Shown here in pieces: positions 17,904 to 48,056 of a DNA stretch of 64,000 nt. Under the pieces are notes generated by a model. That model searched no databases, was not told where the DNA came from, and saw nothing but the letters and a program-made list of their open reading frames with translations. The stretch's first letter is position 1. The number at the start of each line of letters is the position of its first letter. The translations under genes and the position numbers were made by a program. Source of the DNA: Candidatus Sulfurimonas baltica (GTDB lineage Bacteria; Campylobacterota; Campylobacteria; Campylobacterales; Sulfurimonadaceae); NCBI RefSeq assembly GCF_015265455.1, contig NZ_CP054492.1:62001-126000 (forward strand). Reading direction: 5' to 3'.

Positions 17904-18869
17904 TTACTTTTTACTTTTACTGATAATCAAATATATAAAAAACGGACCGCCGATAAGTGCTGTAACTATGCCTATGGGGAGTTCACTTTGAGTCTGTAAA
18001 CTTCTTGTTATGGTATCGCAAAAAACTAAAAAAAGTCCACCAAAAAGAGCCGTTTTTAGTATGCGTTTGTTTATTGTGCTTGGGTAGATTTTTGAGACAA
18101 TATGTGGAACTATAAGCCCTACAAAGCCGATAGGACCGCTAATACTAACAAGCGTTCCTATTGCAAAAGAGGAGGCAACTAGAAGCATTAGGGTAATCTT
18201 TTTTGTATTGACACCCTTAAGAGAGGCAGACTCGTCTGATATTCCTAAAAGTTGAAGCTCAAAGCGGTACATGTAGATAATTGCAGTGAGTAAAAATGCG
18301 ATAACTCCAAGAGTAGCAGGGTGGCTCCATCCTATAACAGAGAGTGAACCCATGGTGTAACGAATTAGCATATCGTTTTGCATGGCGTCGCCGAGATAAA
18401 AAACAATCATTAGTGCCGAGGTGTAAAAAAGAGAGAGGGCGATACCTAAAAGTAGGAGCGACTCTTGATGAGAACTTTTTAAAAATTGTGAGAGATAGAT
18501 AAGCAGAAGAACTGTAAAAATAGCCCCTGCAAAGCCAAACAAACTGATGGCTGTTATACCAAACAACAAGCTTCCAAGCCCTAGTTTTATGGCAATTCCA
18601 GCGCCTAACACTGCACCGCTTGAGATACCCAAAGTGTAAGGAGTCATAAGGGCATTACGAAAAAGAGTCTGAAACAAAAGTCCGCTAAGAGAGAGGATAA
18701 CTCCCGCAAAAAATGCAAACAAAACCCTCGGCACTCGCAAGTCAAAAAAGATAGTAGAACTTAGATGATTCGGGTCAAATATATTTTCTACATGTAGAGA
18801 TACTGCACCTATAAAAGGGGAGAGGATTAAGATGGCAAAAAGAAGAAGCCAGAGAATAAACTTAGTCAT
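17904..18869 (-). CDS. btuC: Cobalamin ABC transporter permease
   Basis: 321 residues from the ATG at 18869. This start gives an 8-bp overlap with the btuD stop and begins directly at the first membrane helix (MTKFILWLLLFAILILSPF); the upstream ATG at 18902 would add 11 residues. FecCD/BtuC-type permease with about ten helices. Family landmarks are DLRVPRVLFAFFAG, TLGISSGAVLGAG and a late ISGPIGFVGLIVPHIVS coupling-helix segment. It works with BtuD and BtuF to move vitamin B12 across the inner membrane; the context (btuB, cob genes) decides for B12 over iron-siderophore. Confidence 0.88.
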   Translation of the reverse strand: MTKFILWLLLFAILILSPFIGAVSLHVENIFDPNHLSSTIFFDLRVPRVLFAFFAGVILSLSGLLFQTLFRNALMTPYTLGISSGAVLGAGIAIKLGLGSLLFGITAISLFGFAGAIFTVLLLIYLSQFLKSSHQESLLLLGIALSLFYTSALMIVFYLGDAMQNDMLIRYTMGSLSVIGWSHPATLGVIAFLLTAIIYMYRFELQLLGISDESASLKGVNTKKITLMLLVASSFAIGTLVSISGPIGFVGLIVPHIVSKIYPSTINKRILKTALFGGLFLVFCDTITRSLQTQSELPIGIVTALIGGPFFIYLIISKSKK

Positions 18870-19587
18870 ACTTAACCGCCAAAGACTCAAACTCAACTCC
18901 ATATAACTCTTCTAAAGTGGAGTTGTTGAAAAAGCCCTCTTCGTAGAGTTTTGCCTCTGCATCTTTTATAAAAAGAACAGGGCTGTCAATATAAGAAGCA
19001 AGGTTTAAATCGTGTGTAATAAGTATAACTTGATGGTAATCCTTTAGCCCTTTTATATGCTCGGCAATGATTTTAGAGTTATGAGGGTCAAGGTTTGCTG
19101 TCGGCTCATCAAAGATGATTATTTTACTCTGTTGTGCAAGTGCCTGAGCAACTAAAACGAGTTGCTGTTCTCCTGAACTGAGTGAGCTGATGGTGTGCTC
19201 TTTTAGATGCGCTATCTTTAAAAACTCCAAAGTCTGTTTTGTAATATTTTTGTCTTTAGTCGAGTACTCAAAAAAGCTTTTTTTATAAGCAAATCGCCCA
19301 AGCAGAACAAACTCCTCTGCGGTTATAAATGTGTCATAGAGTTCGAGTTTTGCAGGGATGTAAGAGATGGTTTTAGCTTTATCTAAAAGTGAGAACTCTT
19401 TTATGTTTTTAGACTCTAACTCCACTAAACCATCAAAATCTACGAGATTGCATATTGCTTTTGCAAGAGTACTTTTACCAGAGCCATTCGATCCAAGAAC
19501 ACTTAGATGATTGGTGATTTTTATATTTATATCATCCAAAATTAGTTTAGAGTCATATCTACATGTAAGGTTTTTTAACTCAATCAT
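18862..19587 (-). CDS. btuD: Cobalamin ABC transporter ATPase
   Basis: 241 residues. Walker A GSNGSGKST near residue 33, signature SSLSSGEQQLVL, Walker B KIIIFDEPTANLDP and the His switch ILITHD are all present. It powers import through BtuC. Its ATG overlaps the stop of jetD by 4 bp (ATGA at 19584-19587) and its stop overlaps btuC. So the uptake genes after the Wadjet module are transcribed and probably translated together with it. Confidence 0.9.
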   Translation of the reverse strand: MIELKNLTCRYDSKLILDDINIKITNHLSVLGSNGSGKSTLAKAICNLVDFDGLVELESKNIKEFSLLDKAKTISYIPAKLELYDTFITAEEFVLLGRFAYKKSFFEYSTKDKNITKQTLEFLKIAHLKEHTISSLSSGEQQLVLVAQALAQQSKIIIFDEPTANLDPHNSKIIAEHIKGLKDYHQVILITHDLNLASYIDSPVLFIKDAEAKLYEEGFFNNSTLEELYGVEFESLAVKYD

Positions 19588-20345
19588 AATAAAAAATACT
19601 CTTGTTCTAAAGATTTTTGGTGTTTATGCATAAGAGAGATTAACTCACTTATCTGTTCATTATCAGATGACATATTGGTATATCTGCTTAGGTGACTTGC
19701 ATAAAGTTTTCTAGAGCCAAATTTTTCTAAAAGCTGTTCAATATTTTCTGGTATGAAAAACTTTATCTTTTCATTTTTAGGAAAAATCTCATTCAAATAT
19801 ATATGAATTCCTGCTAAATCAAAATCTCCAAAATAGATAATCTCATTTTCAATTTTCTCAAATAGCTCCAACATCTTCTTATTTCTAAAAATAAATAATA
19901 TATTGTCATTTCTAAAATAGTTACACTGTTTTTCAAAATAGATTAAATTCTCAAAGTTCTCAACACCTATAATTAAGGTGCTTTTATCTATATTTGGAAG
20001 CTCTTTTAAAAAAATTGCACTTTGGCTAAATAGCGGAAGTTTAACCTCTTCAATAGAGCAGTTACCATTTATATATAAGCCATCTTGAGGTGGAAGACTT
20101 TTATGCTTTGAGTCCGTATGTGCATGTATTAGCTTTGCTCTAGTATCAGCATTTTGAATCTCTTCTATGTTGTAGTAGGTAGTAAAAAATTCATCTTTTG
20201 CAATAACTTTTTTTTTGTTTGCAGATACTGTTTTAACTTCTATCAACCCATCATCTAGCAACTCTTTTAGTAATCTCTTAGGTAGTTGCGAATAGTTTAA
20301 AACTTTTTCGTTTTTTAGTTTTAAGAGCGTGCTCAAATGTCTCAT
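19584..20345 (-). CDS. jetD: Wadjet JetD-like TOPRIM nuclease subunit, compact form
   Basis: 253 residues. The N-terminus looks like a winged-helix DNA-binding region (residues about 1-50). A TOPRIM-like core follows, with the acidic residue E129 in LIIGVENFENL and a DxD pair D174/D176 in YFGDFDLAGIHIY, the form typical of the DUF2220/JetD C-terminal domain. In Wadjet, JetD is the topoisomerase-VI-like subunit that cuts circular plasmid DNA extruded by JetABC. Many JetD proteins are about 380-400 residues, so this one is short; the reduced part appears to lie in the N-terminal half. ATG overlaps the jetC stop by 4 bp. Confidence 0.82.
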   Translation of the reverse strand: MRHLSTLLKLKNEKVLNYSQLPKRLLKELLDDGLIEVKTVSANKKKVIAKDEFFTTYYNIEEIQNADTRAKLIHAHTDSKHKSLPPQDGLYINGNCSIEEVKLPLFSQSAIFLKELPNIDKSTLIIGVENFENLIYFEKQCNYFRNDNILFIFRNKKMLELFEKIENEIIYFGDFDLAGIHIYLNEIFPKNEKIKFFIPENIEQLLEKFGSRKLYASHLSRYTNMSSDNEQISELISLMHKHQKSLEQEYFLL

Positions 20346-23300
20346 TTAACAATCAACTCCTGAACAACAGAGCTGTTGTCAATGTTGCTTATTAAGCTAA
20401 CTCTTTTATATGTTCCTATAAGTTTTTCATCAGGGGCGCCATTTACAAAATATATCCCCTTTGCATTTGCAAACTCAATAAGCTCTTTTAGATACCTTTG
20501 TGAGAGTATCCCAATCTCATCTAGGATTACATGTAACAAAAGCTCTTTTTTTGTTGTTTTTTCTTTTAAAATATAAAGCATCGCTATATATATCATACTT
20601 TTCACTAAAACATCTGTTCCGTTTGAACCTATGTTGTCAAGAGAGCTTACAAATTTACTGTCGTTACCATTTTCAACTACGCGAAATTCAAGAAGAAAAC
20701 TATCTTCAAACTCTATTTTACTTATCGCTTCTATCTCTATAACATCTACAAGCTGTTTCAATAGTTTTATTATAACTTCTGAATTATTATTATCATTAAA
20801 TAGATTGATGCCGTATCCAAATTTATTTGTTTCGTTTTCAAGTTTTATAGATTTGAAGCTATCTATAATTTTATTGTTGCTTATAGAGTATCTCAGCGAG
20901 AGTGAATCTACAACTCCTATGTTGATGCTCTCAAACAGTTTAGATATTTTTTTTATTAAAGACTCAATCTGCCCTTGGGAGTTTAAAAGCGTATCATACT
21001 CATCTACTATACTTTTTACAATTTGATTTAGATTGCGAACTAAAAAATCTTTAGCTTCATCTATCTTTTTTGCTTCGTAAAACTCTTGTAAATTGTATGC
21101 AGAATCAATAGGGCTAGAGCCTGTTTTTATATGCAAAGTGTTATCATACAAATCACTAACTTTTAGGGTTGCTTTGTGTATCGTGTTTTGTAAATTTCTA
21201 TAAGTTGTTGCTAAATTGTCTATCTTGTTTAGTATAAGCTCTATCTCTTGGAGCTCATCATTAGAAACATATTTTATACCCCACTCTAAATATTCTGCGA
21301 AACTAGAACTTTTTTCAAAATCATCTACTCTTTTAATATTGTTTTGTTTTAGAGTTAGATCTGATGTTTTTTGGATAAGAGTAGTTTGTATCTGCTCTTG
21401 TTGGCTTGTAAATATAGAGTTAAGCTGATTGTGCTCATCACTAAGAAGATCTAGTTTAAGCGTTGCCTCTTTTAGCTCCCTAGTATTTTCTTTTTCTTTG
21501 TCTATGTATTCACTCTTGTCTTTTTTATACTCTATTATAAGTACATTGTAAGAGTTGATTAGTTCAATCTGGGAGGCTAGTTCAGCTATTTTATTTTCTA
21601 ATATCTGTAGTTTTTGTATATCTATATTTTTATTTTTTAATATTTCTTTATAAAGATATTCTTGCTCTTTTGTCGCATCTTCTTTCTCTTGCTCTAGACT
21701 TTTTTGTTTTAGCCCCAACTCTTCTAGAGGTTTTATATATTCAACTGTAAGTTTATTCAGCTCTTTGGTAAAGAGTGATTTTTTTGCTGAAATCTCTTTT
21801 ATTTTTAAACTATCCAGCTCTTGTATCTGCTGCTTTAAAAGTTCTTTTTCTTTTGTTAATTTATCTATATTGGATTGTATAGTTTCTAGCTCTTTTTCTT
21901 TATTTGTCTGAAACTCAACTCTTTTGTATGAGTCTTGCTCTTTGAGGGTGATGATTTTGTTCTTAATGCCAGCTAGTTGTATCTCAAAAGATTTTATTTT
22001 ATCTATTAGCTCTCTTTTGTCTCTGTAGATTTTATTTTCAAAGTTCTTTTGAGTGTTTTTTATCTCATGAATCTGTATTGAATAATTTTTCAACATAGCT
22101 TCAAGAGATATCTTAAGCTTCTCATATTTTGTTTCTAAGCTATTTTTTGGTACTTTAAAATCTAGAAAATCTAGTGCAAATATTTGTCTCGAATCATCTT
22201 TTATATGAACATCAATATCACTAGTTAAAATCTCATCTTTAATAAAGTGAATATATTTATCGCTTTGCCCTAGATTGGCATTTATTTTAAAGCTAAGAGA
22301 GTTCTCATCTGGTGATATTAGTTTCTTTAAAGAGTCAATATCTTTATCTATTATTTGTTTTTCATGAATTTGTTGCTGCTCTTTGTGTTCTATCTGCTTT
22401 AAAAATGACTCGTTTGTTATTCTCAACTCTTTATCTTTGGCTTCAAGGTTTGCTTTTTCTCTTGAGATGTCGTACTCTAACTGTTTTTGAGTTTTCAGAT
22501 GTTGTGATAATTTTTGCGCATCATTGAAAATATAATCTCTATTTTTTATATTTTTTAGCTCAAAATCAAACTTACTCAAATGTAGATCTAAAGTATGAGC
22601 TTCATCTTTGGCGTTTGAAGTTTTATTTTCAAAACTATCTTTTACGCGCTGAGTCTCCTCACTTTCTTTTGTTTTTAAAATTTGTTTTTTTGTCTCTAGT
22701 TCTATGGATAAGTTTAGCTTAGTGCTTTGTAGAAGATTTTTTTGAGCTTCAAAATTATTTAGTATCTTTTGAATTTGGTTGTTATGGTTTTGCTCTATCT
22801 CTTGATGCTCTTTTGTTAGGAACTCTTTTTTTGATACAACTCTTTGTCGCTCAGATTCAAGATTGCTAAGATTTGAAAAAGAAGATATTTTTTCATCAAT
22901 CTTTTGCTCTTTATAGTGAGCTTTTATTTGCTCCGTTTTTTTAATGCTCTCTCTTGAGACAGCGATAGCGTTGCTTAGTTTGTCTTTTCTTTTTGTAAAC
23001 AAACTATTTTCATACTTTTGTTTTTCGTCTAAAAGAGTTTTCTCTACTTTTGCCTCTGAAATCTCTTTATCTAGCTCTTGAATATTTTCTAAGGTTATTT
23101 TTTTTGAGTTTACCAAGCAACTAAACTCATCTTGCATATAAGATTTTGTTTGTTCGTAATCTTGTATATGTTTTATGATTTTTTTTATCTGGGTATCATA
23201 CTTATTAAATCTAAAAATATCTTCATAAAGAGTGTCAAACCTCTCAAGATGTCTTTTTATCTGCTCAATATCTATTTTTTTATCTATCTGCAAAGATGAG

Positions 23301-23881
23301 ACTATTACCCTTTTGATAGCTTCAGAATCAACTTTGGAATTTATAAATATATTTGATAGCGTTTTTACAAAACCATCATACTCTTTTGCATCAAAAAGGG
23401 TATAGTAATTTAGTTTGTGAGATTTAGAGTAGAGTATCTTTTTGTATTCACTCCCGCTACTAATAACTCCGCTCAATATTCCAAGTTCTTTGAGCTTTAT
23501 CCAAAGTTTAGCACTATCTATTGGAGCGCTGTTAACAACAAAAATATCTTGTATATTTACTAATTTATCAAGCAAGCAAAACCTGAATTTCACTGTTACA
23601 TCTTTGTATGCCGTTACCAAGACAAACTTTTCATTTTTTTTGTAAACATATACAATATATGAATTATCGTATTCAAAATAGTAATCACTAAAAGATATTT
23701 TTTTACTGCTACTTATTCCAAGTGTTCTCGCATCGGCTGTATAAAAGTATAAAATAGCTCTTAGAAGTGTAGTCTTTCCAGCTCCATTTGCCCCTATGAA
23801 AAGAGAATTTCCATCAAGGTCTACTTCAGCATATTCATATTTTGCTGATTTTATAAGTACAACTTTTTCTAAAGCATCCAA
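20342..23881 (-). CDS. jetC: Wadjet JetC-like SMC/MukB-type ATPase
   Basis: 1179 residues. N-terminal ATPase half with Walker A GANGAGKTT at residues 30-38. A very long coiled-coil region rich in Lys, Glu and Gln runs from about 220 to 950. The C-terminal half has a signature-like NIGSNGTDVLVKSM and Walker B HVILDEIGIL. This is the MukB-like motor that extrudes DNA loops in Wadjet. The start is TTG, supported by AAAGGAG placed 7 bp upstream inside the end of jetB. The coiled coil is on the long side and no hinge domain can be placed with certainty by eye. Confidence 0.88.
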   Translation of the reverse strand: MDALEKVVLIKSAKYEYAEVDLDGNSLFIGANGAGKTTLLRAILYFYTADARTLGISSSKKISFSDYYFEYDNSYIVYVYKKNEKFVLVTAYKDVTVKFRFCLLDKLVNIQDIFVVNSAPIDSAKLWIKLKELGILSGVISSGSEYKKILYSKSHKLNYYTLFDAKEYDGFVKTLSNIFINSKVDSEAIKRVIVSSLQIDKKIDIEQIKRHLERFDTLYEDIFRFNKYDTQIKKIIKHIQDYEQTKSYMQDEFSCLVNSKKITLENIQELDKEISEAKVEKTLLDEKQKYENSLFTKRKDKLSNAIAVSRESIKKTEQIKAHYKEQKIDEKISSFSNLSNLESERQRVVSKKEFLTKEHQEIEQNHNNQIQKILNNFEAQKNLLQSTKLNLSIELETKKQILKTKESEETQRVKDSFENKTSNAKDEAHTLDLHLSKFDFELKNIKNRDYIFNDAQKLSQHLKTQKQLEYDISREKANLEAKDKELRITNESFLKQIEHKEQQQIHEKQIIDKDIDSLKKLISPDENSLSFKINANLGQSDKYIHFIKDEILTSDIDVHIKDDSRQIFALDFLDFKVPKNSLETKYEKLKISLEAMLKNYSIQIHEIKNTQKNFENKIYRDKRELIDKIKSFEIQLAGIKNKIITLKEQDSYKRVEFQTNKEKELETIQSNIDKLTKEKELLKQQIQELDSLKIKEISAKKSLFTKELNKLTVEYIKPLEELGLKQKSLEQEKEDATKEQEYLYKEILKNKNIDIQKLQILENKIAELASQIELINSYNVLIIEYKKDKSEYIDKEKENTRELKEATLKLDLLSDEHNQLNSIFTSQQEQIQTTLIQKTSDLTLKQNNIKRVDDFEKSSSFAEYLEWGIKYVSNDELQEIELILNKIDNLATTYRNLQNTIHKATLKVSDLYDNTLHIKTGSSPIDSAYNLQEFYEAKKIDEAKDFLVRNLNQIVKSIVDEYDTLLNSQGQIESLIKKISKLFESINIGVVDSLSLRYSISNNKIIDSFKSIKLENETNKFGYGINLFNDNNNSEVIIKLLKQLVDVIEIEAISKIEFEDSFLLEFRVVENGNDSKFVSSLDNIGSNGTDVLVKSMIYIAMLYILKEKTTKKELLLHVILDEIGILSQRYLKELIEFANAKGIYFVNGAPDEKLIGTYKRVSLISNIDNSSVVQELIVK

Positions 23882-23884
23882 AAG

Positions 23885-24424
23885 CTACTCCTTTATCTCT
23901 ATTTTATTAAAAAAATCTATTAAATAATCACAACTGTTTAACACTATATATCTTTGCAAATACTCATCTTCAAGAGTTAAAAAACCTCTTTTTTCGAGCT
24001 TGGACGTTAGAGACAATAAGTTTGCTCTTAGTGTGTCTCCGCTTAAACTTTTGATTCTATCCAATTTTACTTTTAGGGTAATATCATCTTTTACTCTCTC
24101 TTCGATATCGTTGATACTAAACTTAAAACCAACGCCAAATATAGGATTGAAATTATAAAAAAAACTAAGCAAATCAATTAGTTCGTAAATTGATTGGATT
24201 TTTTGTTCCTTGTTATCTAGTGAAGCGAAGTAGCAGTAACCATTTTTGATTTTTAAATCTATATCTAGATAAAGAAACAGTTCTATAATCTCATCACTAT
24301 TATTTTCCACATAAGTGTATAATTTTTTTTCATTTTTATCTGGTGTGTTTTGAGATAAAAATTTACCGTCTTTTAGATGGTTGAAAATTTTTGCTGTTAA
24401 CTGCTTATCTAATTTGCTTGTCAT
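23885..24424 (-). CDS. jetB: Wadjet JetB-like (MukE-type) subunit
   Basis: 179 residues. Predicted tandem winged-helix protein without recognisable catalytic residues: DLLSFFYNFNPIFGVGFKFSIND in the middle and a C-terminal SKLEKRGFLTLEDEYLQRYIVLNS. Size and position between a kleisin-like and an SMC-like gene fit JetB/MukE. It overlaps jetA by 20 bp and leaves 3 bp to the jetC start, so the complex subunits are tightly coupled. Assigned mainly by gene order. Confidence 0.78.
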   Translation of the reverse strand: MTSKLDKQLTAKIFNHLKDGKFLSQNTPDKNEKKLYTYVENNSDEIIELFLYLDIDLKIKNGYCYFASLDNKEQKIQSIYELIDLLSFFYNFNPIFGVGFKFSINDIEERVKDDITLKVKLDRIKSLSGDTLRANLLSLTSKLEKRGFLTLEDEYLQRYIVLNSCDYLIDFFNKIEIKE

Positions 24425-25553
24425 AATAAACCTTTTTAAAACTCATATCTTCATAATTGAAATTTTCATTTTGGATTTTATATATATCTTCATAAAGTAA
24501 AATAAGCTTGCAGTATATTTCACTTATCTCGTTGATAGGTTTGTTTGTTAGTTTGTTATTAGAGAGTAAAAATTCTATCAGATTTTGATTGGATGCGCGA
24601 AACTCTAAGTTTAGTGAGTAGATATTTACAAACTCTTTTTCTACTTTTTTATTAAATATTTTTACATTCGTTGCTGTTTTTGTTTTTACACTTGCACTAG
24701 ATGATAATCGCTCTAGCAGAGGTTTTAATTGCTCACTTCTAAGAATCTCATCATCAAGTCTTGATTTTATTTGTATCTGTTTCTCTTGTATATCAAATTT
24801 AGATATCAACTCCAATATATTTGTGGAGTTTTTGAGTTCTAAAGAGTCCTTCAGCTCTTTTATTTTTGAAATTTTTTCTATAAAAATATTTTTTTTCTCA
24901 GCCTTGTTTATGTACTCTATAACATCTTGAGTTAAAGGGATAAGACTTCTATTTAACTCCACTCTATTGTTTTGTAAAAGTTCCAAAATTGAGTTTAGTT
25001 CAGAGTTATAAAAAGAGTGCATTATGCTTTGATGTAAAAAAAGAAACTTTTCAAAACCAACTAGTGCTGAGTTGAACTCATCTAGCTTTATTTTGTAATA
25101 TTTAAGCTCTTTTATTTTTAAGCTGAATTCAAAAACATTTTTATAAACCCTGTCTATATGAATTCTCAATTTTAGTAAATTTTGCAGAAGTATAAAATCT
25201 ATTTTTTTAAGTTCTCGTCTGATTTGTGGGATTATCTCGTTTTGTCTATTTTTATATTCACTTAAAATATCTAGTTTATGTTTTAGAGTATTTATCTTTT
25301 CAGAGATAAGAGAAACCTCAATATTTTCATCTATATCAAGATAGTTTTCTAAAAAGTTTATAACTCTACCATCTAAAAATATTTTATCTTGCACAAGTTC
25401 TATAATCTCAAAATTTACTAGAATTTCTAGTTTTTCTACAGAACAAATATGCTCTATCTCGCTGTATGTTACTGCTTTATCTCGATGTTCAAAAAGATAA
25501 AAAAGCAGCTCACTATTGTTGCTAAGATTTTTAAAAAGTTTTTCTATTTTCAT
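24405..25553 (-). CDS. jetA: Wadjet JetA-like (MukF/kleisin-type) subunit
   Basis: 382 residues. N-terminal winged-helix-like region (LLFYLFEHRDKAVTYSEIEHICS ... IIELVQDKIFLDGRVINFLENYL, about 12-75), then a largely helical and coiled-coil middle and a C-terminal domain (about 290-380), the layout expected of the MukF/JetA kleisin that bridges the two JetC heads. First gene of the jetABCD run. It begins 45 bp after btuF and has its own strong extended -10 promoter in that gap. Assigned from architecture and synteny with jetB-jetC-jetD. Confidence 0.8.
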   Translation of the reverse strand: MKIEKLFKNLSNNSELLFYLFEHRDKAVTYSEIEHICSVEKLEILVNFEIIELVQDKIFLDGRVINFLENYLDIDENIEVSLISEKINTLKHKLDILSEYKNRQNEIIPQIRRELKKIDFILLQNLLKLRIHIDRVYKNVFEFSLKIKELKYYKIKLDEFNSALVGFEKFLFLHQSIMHSFYNSELNSILELLQNNRVELNRSLIPLTQDVIEYINKAEKKNIFIEKISKIKELKDSLELKNSTNILELISKFDIQEKQIQIKSRLDDEILRSEQLKPLLERLSSSASVKTKTATNVKIFNKKVEKEFVNIYSLNLEFRASNQNLIEFLLSNNKLTNKPINEISEIYCKLILLYEDIYKIQNENFNYEDMSFKKVYYDKQIR

Positions 25554-25598: not shown

Positions 25599-26495
25599 TT
25601 AGAAATTCATCTCCCTGCAAAGCCTTGAGATAGTAAGTGCAACCCTGTGTGAAGGGATGTGCGTATAGCTCTCGTCTACTATAGAGATTCGTTTGTTTTT
25701 TGAAGCATTTGTCGGAAGTGAGTGCCAAGCTTGTAGAGCTTTTTTCACATCCACATGTGAGTCTGTAGCTTTAGAATAAAGTATTATTATCTGCTCAGGA
25801 TTAAGTGCGATTACGTTTTCATAGTTTAAAACAGGTTGAGAAGTTGTATCGCTTGTGTAAGCGTTTGTATTTCCACATGTAGAGATTATATCGTCAAAAA
25901 ATATGTCGTGACCAGCGATGTAAATGCCGTTTCTCAAATCTTCATGAAGTCCGTAAACTATCATTACGCTGTGAGGTTTTTTGTTTTTAGGTGCATCTTT
26001 TATTGCGTTGTCTATGTTTTTAATAAGTTTAGTAGATTCCCAGTCAAGCTGAGAATGACGAATGTGATTCTCATTGGAATGAGTCTCTTTGGAATCAATA
26101 TCATTCGTCATTCTCGGGCTTGACCCGTGAATCTCTTTGTCTATAAGGGCAATAGATTTTTTTATTGACTCTATAGTTTTTAGATTTAGCATCAGTGTTT
26201 TTATTTTAAAGTATTGAAGCTTTTGCATAGTAGCCCCATTGTGTTCCTGCCCAACAACAAGGGTAGGAGAGAAAGAGAGAATCTTTTCTATATTCGGATT
26301 GCTGTATCCGCCGATAATCTGAAGTTTTTTCGCCTCCTCCGGATAGAGGGAATAATCACTCGTAGCAACAAGCTTGTCACCTTTTTCAAGAGCATAGACA
26401 ATTTCGGTTATTGATGGGCTAAGAGAGACTATCCTCTCATTAGCACCAAGAGAGAGTACAAAAAGGAGTGCAATAAATATTGTTTTTATACTCAC
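25599..26495 (-). CDS. btuF: Cobalamin-binding periplasmic protein, with an in-frame repeat insertion
   Basis: 298 residues. Signal peptide at 1-18 (GTG start, AAGGA 6 bp upstream overlapping the btuB stop). Fold and motifs of helical-backbone metal/B12 binding proteins: NERIVSLSPSITEIVYALEKGDKLVATSDYSLYPEEAKK, IGGYSNPNIEKILSFSPTLVV, and a C-terminal NPEQIIILYSKA. It captures B12 for BtuCD. Residues about 120-155 (HGSSPRMTND ... IRHSQLDWEST) are not part of the family; they are encoded by a palindromic repeat element lying in frame. The insert falls in the linker region between the two lobes, where it may be tolerated. Confidence 0.88.
   Translation of the reverse strand: MSIKTIFIALLFVLSLGANERIVSLSPSITEIVYALEKGDKLVATSDYSLYPEEAKKLQIIGGYSNPNIEKILSFSPTLVVGQEHNGATMQKLQYFKIKTLMLNLKTIESIKKSIALIDKEIHGSSPRMTNDIDSKETHSNENHIRHSQLDWESTKLIKNIDNAIKDAPKNKKPHSVMIVYGLHEDLRNGIYIAGHDIFFDDIISTCGNTNAYTSDTTSQPVLNYENVIALNPEQIIILYSKATDSHVDVKKALQAWHSLPTNASKNKRISIVDESYTHIPSHRVALTISRLCREMNF
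26034..26134. repeat. Palindromic repeat element inside btuF
   Basis: About 101 bp bounded by inverted AGATTC (26034-26039) and GAATCT (26129-26134). Each end is itself a stem-TCAAG-stem palindrome (26036-26056 and 26110-26132). Core and GAATGACG tail match the intergenic elements at 2291 and 28362. Read on the minus strand it is open and joins both parts of btuF. Confidence 0.85.
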
Positions 26496-26503
26496 GTTAT
26501 TCC

Positions 26504-28309
26504 TTAAAATTTAGCATTCACACCGACATAAGCACTAAGTGGTGCAGTTGCATAACCGTCTACTACTTGGTAGTATTTGTCAAACAGATTGTCTATTTTA
26601 GCATATACAGAAAAGTTATTGTTGATGTCATAGTTAGTTACAAAGTTTACAACTGTGTATTTCCCTGTTTGTGTGCCTTGCTTGTCATCACTGCTGTGTC
26701 TCTCACCGATATACTCACCGTTGATTCCTACATGTAAGTCTTTAACACCATAATAATCGAGTGCAAGTTTAAGAGAGTTTTTTGGTCTTCTTTGAAGTCT
26801 CTTATCATCACTGTTTTTGGCATCGAGCAAAGTATAGTTTGATGTCAGTGAGATATCTTCATTGATTTTAGTATTGTACTCTATTTCAAAACCTTGGATT
26901 TTAGTCTCTCCTGTGGCATTAAAATACTTCCAAGTATTCAAATCAAAATCAATCATATCTTTTGTTTTAGAGTTAAAATAAGTGATTTTAAATGCTTTAT
27001 ACTCTGCACTTAAATCATAACTTAGTGTATTTTCAGGTGTCAGGTTTTTATTTCCGTAAGTTGGATCATTGAGATTATACAGAGTTGGCACATTATAAGA
27101 TGAACCAATATTTGCACTTGTTACTAAGCCGTCTATATTTTTGCAAAAATGTTTTATACCTACTTTACCTGTAGTCTTATTATCAAATTTGTCATAAGCA
27201 TCCAATCGCATAGATTCACTTAGAACAGTTCTCCCACCTAAAAGAGTGAACTCATTAGAGTTTGTAAGGAAAATAGCCTTATTGTTATACTTTTCTTGCA
27301 AGTCATTTTTATGCTCAAATGTTTTGTAGTCTATACCTAAAACTACAAAGTCATCATCATTATATGCTGTATTAGACTTTATCCCATACTCTTTTACTTC
27401 TCCATCAAACTCTTTTGTCCATCCTTGTGGATAATCTCTGTTAAATATTGAAAGTTTTGCATAAACGTCTAGCTCTGTAAAATCGTTTTTGTGATTTAAG
27501 TTTACTTGGCTAAAACTATCCTTTGTGATTGAATTTTCAATACCGTTAGGAGTTGCAAAAGGATCAGACTCTACCTTTGAGTATATAAGTGTGTGAGATA
27601 AATCTACTTTGTTGTTTTCGTCAAAATTAAACCCAAGTTTGATATTTGAAGTTGTGTTTTTATAGCCGTCATCTTCATACATGTCAATATCATCACCGTT
27701 TGGAACCAGTGAGCTAAAACCGTTTGAGTCAATCTTTTGTGCACTGGCTTTTATGTAGTAAGCGTCTGTTTTGTATGAGGCTAAAACACCATACTTCTTT
27801 GTGCTAAAACTTCCATACTCAACATTTATCGAAGCATGAGCACCTTTTTCTGCACTTTTTGTTATGATGTTAATAACACCTGCAGTTGCATCAGCTCCCC
27901 AAATACCAGATTGAGCACCTTTTATAACCTCAATCTGCTCAATATCTCCTATCATCAAATCTCCAAAAGGAGCACCGCTTAGACCTGTTAAATCGTTGTA
28001 TCTGATACCATCAATGAGAACAAGTGTTCTTTTTGAGCTTAGTCCACGTAAATATACAGAAGATGTTTGTCCAATAGGACCATTACTTGTGAAGCTAATA
28101 CCTGATATGCTGTTTAATGCCTGAACTACCGTCGTATAGCGTTTTTCTTCAATCTCTTTAGCGGTTATAACATTTAGATTGGATGTGACATCTTCTATAG
28201 ACTGTGTAGTTGTTGTTGCACTCGTTACTGTGATTTGTTTTAGCTCAATTTCTTGAGCAACTAATATACTTGAAGCAAGTATTGATAATAGTATCTTTTT
28301 TTTGTACAT
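26504..28309 (-). CDS. btuB: TonB-dependent receptor, probable vitamin B12 receptor
   Basis: 601 residues. Signal peptide to about residue 19, a TonB-box-like start (QITVTSATTTTQ), a plug domain (SNLNVITAKEIEEKRYTTVVQALNSISG; YLRGLSSKRTLVLIDG), then a beta-barrel that ends in a C-terminal Phe (AYVGVNAKF), as outer-membrane barrels do. The length matches E. coli BtuB (about 600). It brings corrinoids across the outer membrane using TonB energy. Substrate is assigned from the adjacent btuF. No cobalamin riboswitch was recognised upstream. Confidence 0.87.
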   Translation of the reverse strand: MYKKKILLSILASSILVAQEIELKQITVTSATTTTQSIEDVTSNLNVITAKEIEEKRYTTVVQALNSISGISFTSNGPIGQTSSVYLRGLSSKRTLVLIDGIRYNDLTGLSGAPFGDLMIGDIEQIEVIKGAQSGIWGADATAGVINIITKSAEKGAHASINVEYGSFSTKKYGVLASYKTDAYYIKASAQKIDSNGFSSLVPNGDDIDMYEDDGYKNTTSNIKLGFNFDENNKVDLSHTLIYSKVESDPFATPNGIENSITKDSFSQVNLNHKNDFTELDVYAKLSIFNRDYPQGWTKEFDGEVKEYGIKSNTAYNDDDFVVLGIDYKTFEHKNDLQEKYNNKAIFLTNSNEFTLLGGRTVLSESMRLDAYDKFDNKTTGKVGIKHFCKNIDGLVTSANIGSSYNVPTLYNLNDPTYGNKNLTPENTLSYDLSAEYKAFKITYFNSKTKDMIDFDLNTWKYFNATGETKIQGFEIEYNTKINEDISLTSNYTLLDAKNSDDKRLQRRPKNSLKLALDYYGVKDLHVGINGEYIGERHSSDDKQGTQTGKYTVVNFVTNYDINNNFSVYAKIDNLFDKYYQVVDGYATAPLSAYVGVNAKF

Positions 28310-28361: not shown

Positions 28362-28473
28362 CTAGATTCTGGATCAAGTCCAGAATGACGTAAGCATCGT
28401 CGTTCCAAGCGACAGAAATATCGTCGTTTCAAGCGACAAAATATCGTCATTCCAAGCTTGACTTGGAATCTAG
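28362..28473. repeat. Composite palindromic repeat upstream of btuB
   Basis: Bounded by inverted CTAGATTC (28362-28369) and GAATCTAG (28466-28473). Palindromes ATTCTGGA-TCAAG-TCCAGAAT (28366-28386) and ATTCCAAG-CTTGA-CTTGGAAT (28449-28469) flank two copies of an ATCGTCGTTCCAAGCGACA-like unit. Same family as the elements at 2291 and in btuF. It lies in the 5' region of btuB and could affect that transcript. Confidence 0.85.
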
Positions 28474-46311: not shown

Positions 46312-47516
46312 TTTATGTGTTCAGGCAACTCTTTGCTCGCTGCGGCTCCAAGTTTTTCCAGCTTTTGAAACTGGCTGGTAATGCTTCCTGCACCATGATG
46401 CATTTTTGAGTAAGCCTCATCATAGGTTTTTTGTACGGTAACTATCTGTTTTCCAAGCCTCTCGACGCTCTCCACAAACCCTGCAAATTTATCAAACAAA
46501 AGGCCGGCTCTTTTTGCTATCTCTTGGGCATTTCTTTGTTGATGTTCATACTTCCAACTGTTTTCAACCGCACGAAGAGAGACCATAAGTGTAGTTGGAC
46601 CAACTAGGATGATATTTCTTTTAAAAGCATGGTCAAAAAGTGTACTGTCATACTCCATAGCCATTAGCAGAGCAGACTCAATGGGGACAAACATAAAGAT
46701 AAAGTCTAGTGTCTCAACACCTTTTAAAGAGGTGTAATCTTTGCCGCTTAACTCCTTGATATGTTTTTTCATAGAGGCTACATGTAGATTGGCAAAACTC
46801 TCTCTATCTTTATCATTGTCACATGAACAATACTGCTCATATGCAGTTAGTGAAGTTTTGGCATCTATTATAATATCTCTAGTGTTAGGGAGGTGAACTA
46901 TTACGTCAGGTCTATAACGACTTCCATCACTCTCATGTTCCAAACTCACTTCACGCTCATACTCTTTTCCTAGTCTTAAGCCTGAGTTTTCAAGAACGCT
47001 CTCTAGAATCATCTCTCCCCATACACCTTGAGTCTTACTCTCCCCCTTTAATGCTTTGGTAAGATTTTTAGTATCTTGACTCATTTGATGGTTTATCTCT
47101 TTGATGCTTTTTATCTCTGCTTGAAGCATTGAACGGTCTTTCGCCTCTTTAATGTAAACATCATCAATCTGCTTTTTAAACTCGTTGAACTGCTCTCTCA
47201 TAGGGTTTATCATCTTGCTTATGTTTTCTTGGTTTTGAGTAGAGAACTTTTGTGAATTAGATTCGAGTATCTTGTCTGCTAACTCTTTAAACTCAAGCTT
47301 CATCTGCTCTTTATTTTTCTCAAGCAAATCTATTTTCTCTTGACTCATCTGGTTTATACCGTTTATCCGCTCATGCAAAACAGCATTTTCATTTGAGAGT
47401 GCTGCAACTTTTTTAGTCTCTTCATCAAGAGAGTTTTGCATACCCTTAATTACAATAATCCAAAGAGCTAGTACGCCAAATATCATCCCAATAATTACAT
47501 AAAAAGCTTCAATCAT
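46293..47516 (-). CDS. rmuC: DNA recombination protein RmuC
   Basis: 407 residues. N-terminal membrane anchor (FYVIIGMIFGVLALWIIVI), coiled coil at about 30-150, and the RmuC domain with KGESKTQGVWGEMILESVLENSGL, PDVIVHLPNTRDIIIDAKTSL and FVPIESALLMAM; the D..DAK pair recalls the nuclease fold of the family. RmuC limits inversions at short inverted repeats. The length is somewhat below E. coli RmuC (475). Its 3' end is one of the 26-bp direct repeats. Confidence 0.93.
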   Translation of the reverse strand: MIEAFYVIIGMIFGVLALWIIVIKGMQNSLDEETKKVAALSNENAVLHERINGINQMSQEKIDLLEKNKEQMKLEFKELADKILESNSQKFSTQNQENISKMINPMREQFNEFKKQIDDVYIKEAKDRSMLQAEIKSIKEINHQMSQDTKNLTKALKGESKTQGVWGEMILESVLENSGLRLGKEYEREVSLEHESDGSRYRPDVIVHLPNTRDIIIDAKTSLTAYEQYCSCDNDKDRESFANLHVASMKKHIKELSGKDYTSLKGVETLDFIFMFVPIESALLMAMEYDSTLFDHAFKRNIILVGPTTLMVSLRAVENSWKYEHQQRNAQEIAKRAGLLFDKFAGFVESVERLGKQIVTVQKTYDEAYSKMHHGAGSITSQFQKLEKLGAAASKELPEHINRMGED

Positions 47517-47525
47517 TTAAACTCA

Positions 47526-48056
47526 TTATTTCATAGAACTGCCGCATTTTCCCGCAGCACACTTCATGACAGCTTCTTTTGGAATCTCTTTTGGAGCTTC
47601 TTTTTTTGGTTTGGGTTCATTCATTGAGGCACCGCATTTGCCAGCAGCGCATTTCATTACAGCTTCTTTTGGAGCTTCTTTTTTAGGTTTAGGCTCATTC
47701 ATCGAAGCACCACATTTTCCGGCAGCACATTTCATGGCAGGTGCTGCCCCACATTTCCCTGTTCCACATTTTAAAATAAGCTTGATGCCGTCAGGGTCAC
47801 GGACACAATCATACGCTTCTTTCGTTGTCTTTGCTTGCATTACACAATCTTTTCGTGAGTCTTTTTCACGCATCTGAGAGAGTATATTGTTTTTCTTTTT
47901 AGCTAAAGCGGAGTTACCGTCAAACATATTTGCACCACATTTTCCAGCACCACATTTCATACCCGGAGCAGCTTTGCTCTCTTCTTTTTTTTCACCACAC
48001 CCGCTTAGTAGAAGCAGCGCTAGTGAAATAAATAAAATTATTTTAATTTTCATCAT
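47526..48056 (-). CDS. Cys-rich KCG-repeat lipoprotein at the end of the copper-efflux operon
   Basis: 176 residues. Lipobox LLLSGCGEKK gives an outer- or inner-membrane lipoprotein. The mature chain carries 13 Cys: an early MKCGAGKCG, LKCGTGKCG and three MKCAAGKCG units set in Pro/Lys/Glu-rich spacers, two of them repeats of ASMNEPKPKKEAPKE. ATG overlaps the cusA stop by 4 bp (ATGA), so it is translated with the pump and is likely a metal chelator or chaperone. It is related in style to the secreted protein at 38218. Residues about 60-90 (AYDCVRDPDGI) form a separate non-repeat segment. Confidence 0.8.
   Translation of the reverse strand: MMKIKIILFISLALLLLSGCGEKKEESKAAPGMKCGAGKCGANMFDGNSALAKKKNNILSQMREKDSRKDCVMQAKTTKEAYDCVRDPDGIKLILKCGTGKCGAAPAMKCAAGKCGASMNEPKPKKEAPKEAVMKCAAGKCGASMNEPKPKKEAPKEIPKEAVMKCAAGKCGSSMK

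Follow-up and report, generated by a model that had tools for sequence, protein, structure and literature searches.

A CGTC-type REP dimer in frame within btuF of Candidatus Sulfurimonas baltica, and related repeats in other proteins of the genus

Introduction

How a conserved transport protein comes to carry a stretch of palindromic DNA that is read in its own frame is the question raised by btuF in the window analysed here, a 64,000-nucleotide stretch of Candidatus Sulfurimonas baltica (contig NZ_CP054492.1). An earlier note had described a 101-bp element inside this gene, with inverted AGATTC/GAATCT ends and stem-TCAAG-stem palindromes, and had likened it to the palindromic elements of Rickettsia. 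In this study, we followed the element through the genome of the window (G000, 2.74 Mb in one contig), through 135 genomes of the genus (one genome per species) and through 397 Campylobacterota genomes. Our preferred reading, to which we give a probability of about 0.8, is that a CGTC-type REP dimer landed free of stops in a tolerant loop of BtuF, where its peptide would be a near-neutral passenger.

CGTC-tagged REPs were described by Di Nocera, De Gregorio and Rocco (2013; PMC3733652). The sections of that paper cited here give them a stem of 8-9 bp, a loop of 4-5 nt, a mostly head-to-head dimeric arrangement and no dedicated transposase, and report some intragenic copies. Sulfurovum NBC37-1 is CGTC-positive in the same source, and both "sulfur" words of its main text refer to Sulfurovum. 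Sulfurimonas gotlandica appears in the REP-count table of the RepRanger paper (PMC12306157, the part cited). No earlier report of in-frame REPs in this group was recognised in a search that mostly stopped short of subscription journals, supplements and figures.

Results

The btuF gene and the element inside it

The gene, its neighbors in the B12 transport cluster and the parts of the element are as follows.

25599-26495, minus strand: btuF, periplasmic B12-binding protein of an ABC importer; 298 codons, GTG start, intact
26504-28309, minus strand: btuB-like TonB-dependent receptor, directly upstream of btuF; Pfam match, best NCBIfam match TonB-B12, below cut-off
18862-19587, minus strand: ABC transporter ATPase, btuD candidate (Pfam PF00005)
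17904-18902, minus strand: FecCD permease, btuC candidate (Pfam PF01032)
26034-26134, unstranded: CGTC-type REP dimer, head-to-head, in frame within btuF; product in the gene frame HGSSPRMTNDIDSKETHSNENHIRHSQLDWES
26035-26060, plus strand: REP half 1; 8-bp stem with one mismatch, loop TCAAG, head GACG, CAG/CTG subtype
26061-26105, unstranded: inter-head spacer, 45 bp, partly self-pairing in the predicted fold
26106-26133, minus strand: REP half 2; 9-bp stem with one mismatch, loop TCAAG, head GACG, GGG/CCC subtype

The btuF frame runs through its 298 codons without stop or frameshift, insert included, as had been claimed from the sequence. Its product has a Pfam Peripla_BP_2 domain (PF01497), and BtuF is its best NCBIfam match, at 90.3 bits under the model cut-off of 234; this match is unique in the genome. 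Pairwise dN/dS against the sister species G032, with the insert left out, is 0.081, an average over time that includes the period before the insertion, so that a recently dead btuF would still look constrained. The btuD and btuC candidates lie downstream in the same orientation. A condensin-like cluster (19584-25553, minus strand) separates them from btuF; it encodes MksE (Pfam), proteins of 1179 aa (DUF3584, weakly matching JetC) and 253 aa (DUF7281, weakly matching JetD) and a 382-aa protein without a match, and may be a Wadjet/Mks-like system placed inside the B12 transport cluster. Elsewhere in the window, three to four imperfect direct repeats of 41-78 nt lie at 47497-47972.

The coordinates first given for the element proved exact, with AGATTC at 26034-26039 and GAATCT at 26129-26134. 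Both palindromes were recovered as well, GATTCCCAGTCAAGCTGAGAATGACG on the plus strand and GATTCACGGGTCAAGCCCGAGAATGACG on the minus strand with 45 bp between them, each leaving GACG (CGTC) unpaired at its inward-facing end. Their tails are CTA and CTC; the consensus in the cited sections of PMC3733652 is CCA, which most but not all CGTC REPs fit. On the coding strand the element is predicted to fold at -49.2 kcal/mol (z -8.5; 0 of 200 shuffles match it), and the hairpin is predicted to be very stable on both strands. Two of the six frames are open across the whole 101 bp, against a shuffled mean of 0.75. There is no support for the single half being especially fit for coding: the four common halves have 3 or 4 of six frames open, and shuffled letters 3.3 to 4.0. 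The AlphaFold model of BtuF is poor (mean pLDDT 50.1, alignment of six sequences), and the insert was placed by two of its low-confidence helices, 108-123 and 145-166, together with alignments. By that placement it would occupy a loop immediately ahead of the helix coming after the first lobe, and this loop may tolerate extra residues.

The repeat family in the genome, the genus and the phylum

A search of G000 with the half-repeat pattern gave 94 matches at up to three mismatches, compared with 3 for a reversed-pattern control. On this count and the fold z of -8.5 we rejected a chance palindrome; an assembly artefact was rejected on the one-contig genome together with a second carrier, G063. 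A looser pattern, applied to the stretches around the 94 matches, yielded 110 halves in 55 clusters, made up of 38 two-unit head-to-head dimers, 12 single units and 5 larger clusters; the btuF pair is counted as a single because the pattern misses its 9-bp half. At one mismatch or fewer, the CAG/CTG half of btuF has three copies in the genome, all in ORFs, and its GGG/CCC half is the sole copy at up to three mismatches. Two intergenic relatives, which the earlier note had put at 2291 and 28362, resolve into the following features.

2291-2439, unstranded: intergenic head-to-head REP heterodimer with a tandem array in its spacer
28365-28470, unstranded: intergenic head-to-head REP heterodimer upstream of btuB, with outer inverted arms

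The spacer of the first (2306-2408) holds tandem copies of a unit like TTTGGAATGACGAGACTTTGG.

Six of the 55 clusters can be read through in frame within ORFs of at least 100 codons, a count that required an open frame and covers unbroken genes only. All six ORFs have at least 295 codons and family matches; they are btuF, priA, rmlD, rmlB (dTDP-glucose 4,6-dehydratase) and two NAD-dependent epimerases (Pfam Epimerase), with rmlD, rmlB and priA each over an NCBIfam cut-off. In priA, four REPs contribute about 63 residues. One epimerase REP is common to G000 and G032, with a length difference of 18 nt that keeps the frame. Six of 55 is few for a largely coding genome, which fits the removal of harmful insertions.

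Strict-pattern REPs occur in 34 of the 135 genomes of the genus, with copy numbers that vary widely (0 to 120), and in 26 of the 397 Campylobacterota genomes, in 8 of 68 genera. The CAG subtype was found in 12 of the 135. Among 30 listed CAG-subtype loci, a non-random draw of one to three per genome, 11 are in frame within ORFs of at least 180 codons. These comprise btuF and rmlB in G000, rmlD in three genomes at one site and, named by reading of their sequences, a GDP-fucose-synthase-like gene in two genomes at one site, MnmG-like, PglB/STT3-like and GalU-like genes and one further gene. The in-frame copies in six genes of G000 and in other genomes of the genus bear out the proposal of a protein-coding palindromic repeat family in Campylobacterota. 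Some of the in-frame CAG-subtype genes have the peptide in tandem. The MnmG-like protein of G063 (L214, 820-2961, plus strand) has four in-frame tandem copies of SHPELDSGSEIPSQAEND.

Orthologues, the second carrier and the origin of the insert

BtuF homologues are present in 73 of the 135 genomes. The insert is absent from 40 of the 42 BtuF proteins aligned, its carriers being G000 and G063. Between fixed columns there are 46 residues in G000, 39 in G063 and 18-21 in the 40 insert-free proteins, and only the two carriers match the REP pattern; no orthologue has the segment without the palindrome. The other 31 homologues were judged by their search matches: in 30 of them the two matched parts overlap or are separated by no more than 27 nt, too little for an insert of this size, and the last one (G017) is a 44-residue fragment. 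G032, which shares 91-92% identity with G000 in the two parts flanking the insert, has five residues (ASNYD) where G000 has 32. Thus, the figure of about 34 added residues holds as the length of the element in codons but not as the net gain, which is 27.

In G063 the insert is open in frame, encodes PGSSPRMTQNGHSQLLPQEYDNWES (25 residues) and occupies the same site, with both junctions coinciding with those of G000. The ends of the two peptides are alike (GSSPRMT, HSQL..WES); the spacer is shorter in G063 and its second loop contains a foreign stretch. The predicted fold is -27.5 kcal/mol (84 nt) in G063 and -43.1 kcal/mol (105 nt) in G000. Both here (32 against 25 residues) and in the epimerase shared with G032, length changes between carriers keep the frame.

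The BtuF tree, built with the insert columns removed, groups G000 with G032 (100/100) and G063 with G078 (98/90), so that the carriers are separated and the insert label requires at least two changes. A single landing fits this tree only with transfer or losses, and the alternative is that the same class of REP dimer landed twice, independently, at a preferred or tolerant site of btuF in G000 and G063. The presence of CAG-type REPs in 12 of the 135 genomes agrees with two landings, as do the PriA and RmlD loops, in which repeats arrived more than once. We nevertheless consider two landings unlikely. The junctions coincide in the two carriers, and the GGG half, which has no other copy within three mismatches in G000, has one other match in G063 (3 mismatches, located in the priA linker). 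Further, the carriers share the sites flanking the insert. There, in a test window chosen by us (5 codons up, 9 down), G000+G063 is favoured over G000+G032 by 8 sites to 4, compared with 192 to 18 in favour of G000+G032 in the rest of btuF (Fisher P 4e-6 for the contrast); the best 6 of 250 scanned windows all span the insert. Convergent selection beside the insert would give the same sign in this test. On these comparisons a single origin of both inserts appears more likely than a second landing, either by transfer of a short btuF stretch or from an old insertion that may have been lost or replaced elsewhere.

Movement and outer arms

No Pfam Y1_Tnp match was found in G000, where the same search as a control was positive in 5 of 14 known genomes, and a RAYT-driven REPIN was rejected on this result. 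Among the 38 two-unit dimers, outer inverted arms are present on both sides in 15, on one side in 6 and on neither in 17, in a test that a random site passes at 0.3-0.4% per arm. Dimers with outer inverted arms and short repeated junctions include the one at 28365-28470 and those at genome positions 143570 and 170719. Of three loci compared with G032, two have a clean empty site there, with units of about 115 and 113 bp and repeated junctions of 4 and 2 bp; the third (127925) was not clean (59/80). This arrangement resembles a MITE with a REP dimer at its centre. The DNA on either side of the btuF copy has no match to the outer arms (7-9 mismatches), and the flanks of the six in-gene copies, on either side, gave nothing beyond one 4-mismatch match, in single cases. 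When the outer-arm pattern was used to look for a parent element, it gave 16 matches against 4 in the control; most of the 16 lay next to REPs, and no transposon was evident.

RmlD loops and the PriA linker

RmlD matches were found in 57 of the 135 genomes. Among the 36 proteins aligned, loop 1 has an insert in G000, G037 and G069 and loop 2 in G016, G078 and G087, with G052 uncertain; these counts allow up to two substitutions, since three also struck unrelated places in RmlD, and leave out 8 of 44 loci that could not be parsed. In the same RmlD loops, L205 (G041), L206 (G121) and L207 (G049) hold other repeated peptides, of the VIANEM.QS, SDVLA.AAPK and GEAEATHPK types, apparently from other repeat families.

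PriA is present in 124 of the 135 genomes, and its linker between the 3'-binding domain and the helicase was read in 108 of 113 loci, the 5 unparsed ones being left out. A REP with up to two substitutions occurs in 12 of the 108 linkers (G040 being a degenerate case), compared with 10 of 5400 letter-shuffled linkers. Linker length, as delimited by the chosen motifs, ranges from 22 to 107 residues. In terms of fold z (60 dinucleotide shuffles each), the 12 REP-bearing linkers have a mean of -3.1, with 7 at -3 or lower; the 23 REP-free linkers of at least 33 residues a mean of -2.8, with 10 at -3 or lower; and the 64 REP-free linkers of at most 28 residues a mean of -0.9, with 8 at -3 or lower. 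The other 9 linkers (29-32 residues, REP-free) fall outside the compared groups. Since REP-free long linkers fold better than short ones, other palindromic DNA besides REPs probably lodges in PriA linkers too. Some of the strongest folds of the whole set lie in short linkers (z -11.4 in G128, -8.2 in G061 and -6.9 in G045), so that palindromes there are not confined to long linkers.

Discussion

The btuF segment is a REP dimer, and it is read in frame in a gene that is conserved and under constraint. The course of events that we propose has three parts. A REP dimer would have landed in the BtuF loop in frame and without stops, the loop would have tolerated the extra residues, and insertions that break frame or fold would be removed by selection. 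The same selection filter would explain why REPs lie in the same PriA and RmlD linkers of several species.

The repeat could instead act as RNA or DNA within the gene, its hairpin slowing translation or tuning the btu transcript. The predicted stability on either strand is compatible with such a role, and section 15 of PMC3733652 argues that most REPs are transcribed. In G063, however, a foreign stretch breaks the second REP loop and the predicted fold is less stable, and we regard a role of this kind as quite improbable. The inserted peptide itself might be in use, altering BtuF, for example its contact with the transporter, and kept by positive selection. It is true that two distant lineages carry it with similar ends, but its middle differs between them in sequence and length, the sister species G032 does without it, and repeats of this sort sit in unrelated proteins and in several frames; we think it very improbable that the peptide has been kept for its use. 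A young btuF pseudogene in which the insert is open by accident is the least probable of these alternatives, for although a net insertion of 27 residues could damage a conserved protein and a recent loss would be invisible to dN/dS, the frame is unbroken over its 298 codons and open also in the second carrier, the gene is the only BtuF match of its genome, and btuB-, btuD- and btuC-like genes lie in the same cluster.

The landing of a REP dimer in a tolerant loop, with a passenger peptide, thus remains our reading of btuF. A broader and tentative proposal is that certain protein linkers of Sulfurimonas, that of PriA foremost, may be recurrent docking sites in which palindromic DNA of unrelated families lodges in frame, expands in tandem and travels between species along with the host gene. 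If so, palindromic repeats would keep supplying conserved proteins with new linker sequence.

It is useful to state what the observations offer beyond this locus. CGTC-type protein-coding palindromes are found here in Campylobacterota genomes of ordinary size, and in several species they occupy corresponding loops of a given protein. Each insert is present in some sequenced species and absent from others, so that btuF, priA and rmlD provide natural before-and-after pairs for measuring what a mobile DNA peptide does to a known protein. For annotation, peptides such as HSQLDWES or GSSPRMT should be taken as a warning of repeat-derived sequence. The kind of event is already known; what may interest specialists is that identical linkers are used again and again across the genus. 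In the cited part of PMC3733652, recB of two Xanthomonas species has REPs at about the same site, so that recurrence at one site is not wholly new either.

Among known systems, REPIN/RAYT shares with the btuF element a unit of two REPs in inverted order and differs in its head (GTAG rather than CGTC) and in its transposase, G000 having no Y1_Tnp match. ERIC and the 107-bp Correia element, compared here by description and not by sequence, are likewise small repeats fused in frame to genes (PMC2229807, the part cited); unlike some other dimers of G000, the btuF copy has no outer arms. Closer are the CGTC-2 and CGTC-3 REPs, which in the cited sections of PMC3733652 have 8-9 bp stems, a 5-nt loop, a CGTC head and mostly head-to-head dimers, often of unlike halves; the assignment to these two families is by stem and loop length only. 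The differences from that source, in the same sections, are the host genus, with Sulfurimonas records here, the tails (CTA/CTC against the consensus CCA) and the outer inverted arms on part of the dimers, arms that were not noticed there. The RPE of Rickettsia are also short palindromes in frame within conserved genes, though in another phylum and in other CGTC families by stem and loop length. RPE-6 is equated with CGTC-1 and RPE-4 with CGTC-4 (PMC3733652, section 6), members of the same superfamily, which brings the Rickettsia analogy close to a family relation. There, a guanylate kinase bearing an RPE is translated and active, with a changed affinity (PMC2229807, in the part cited).
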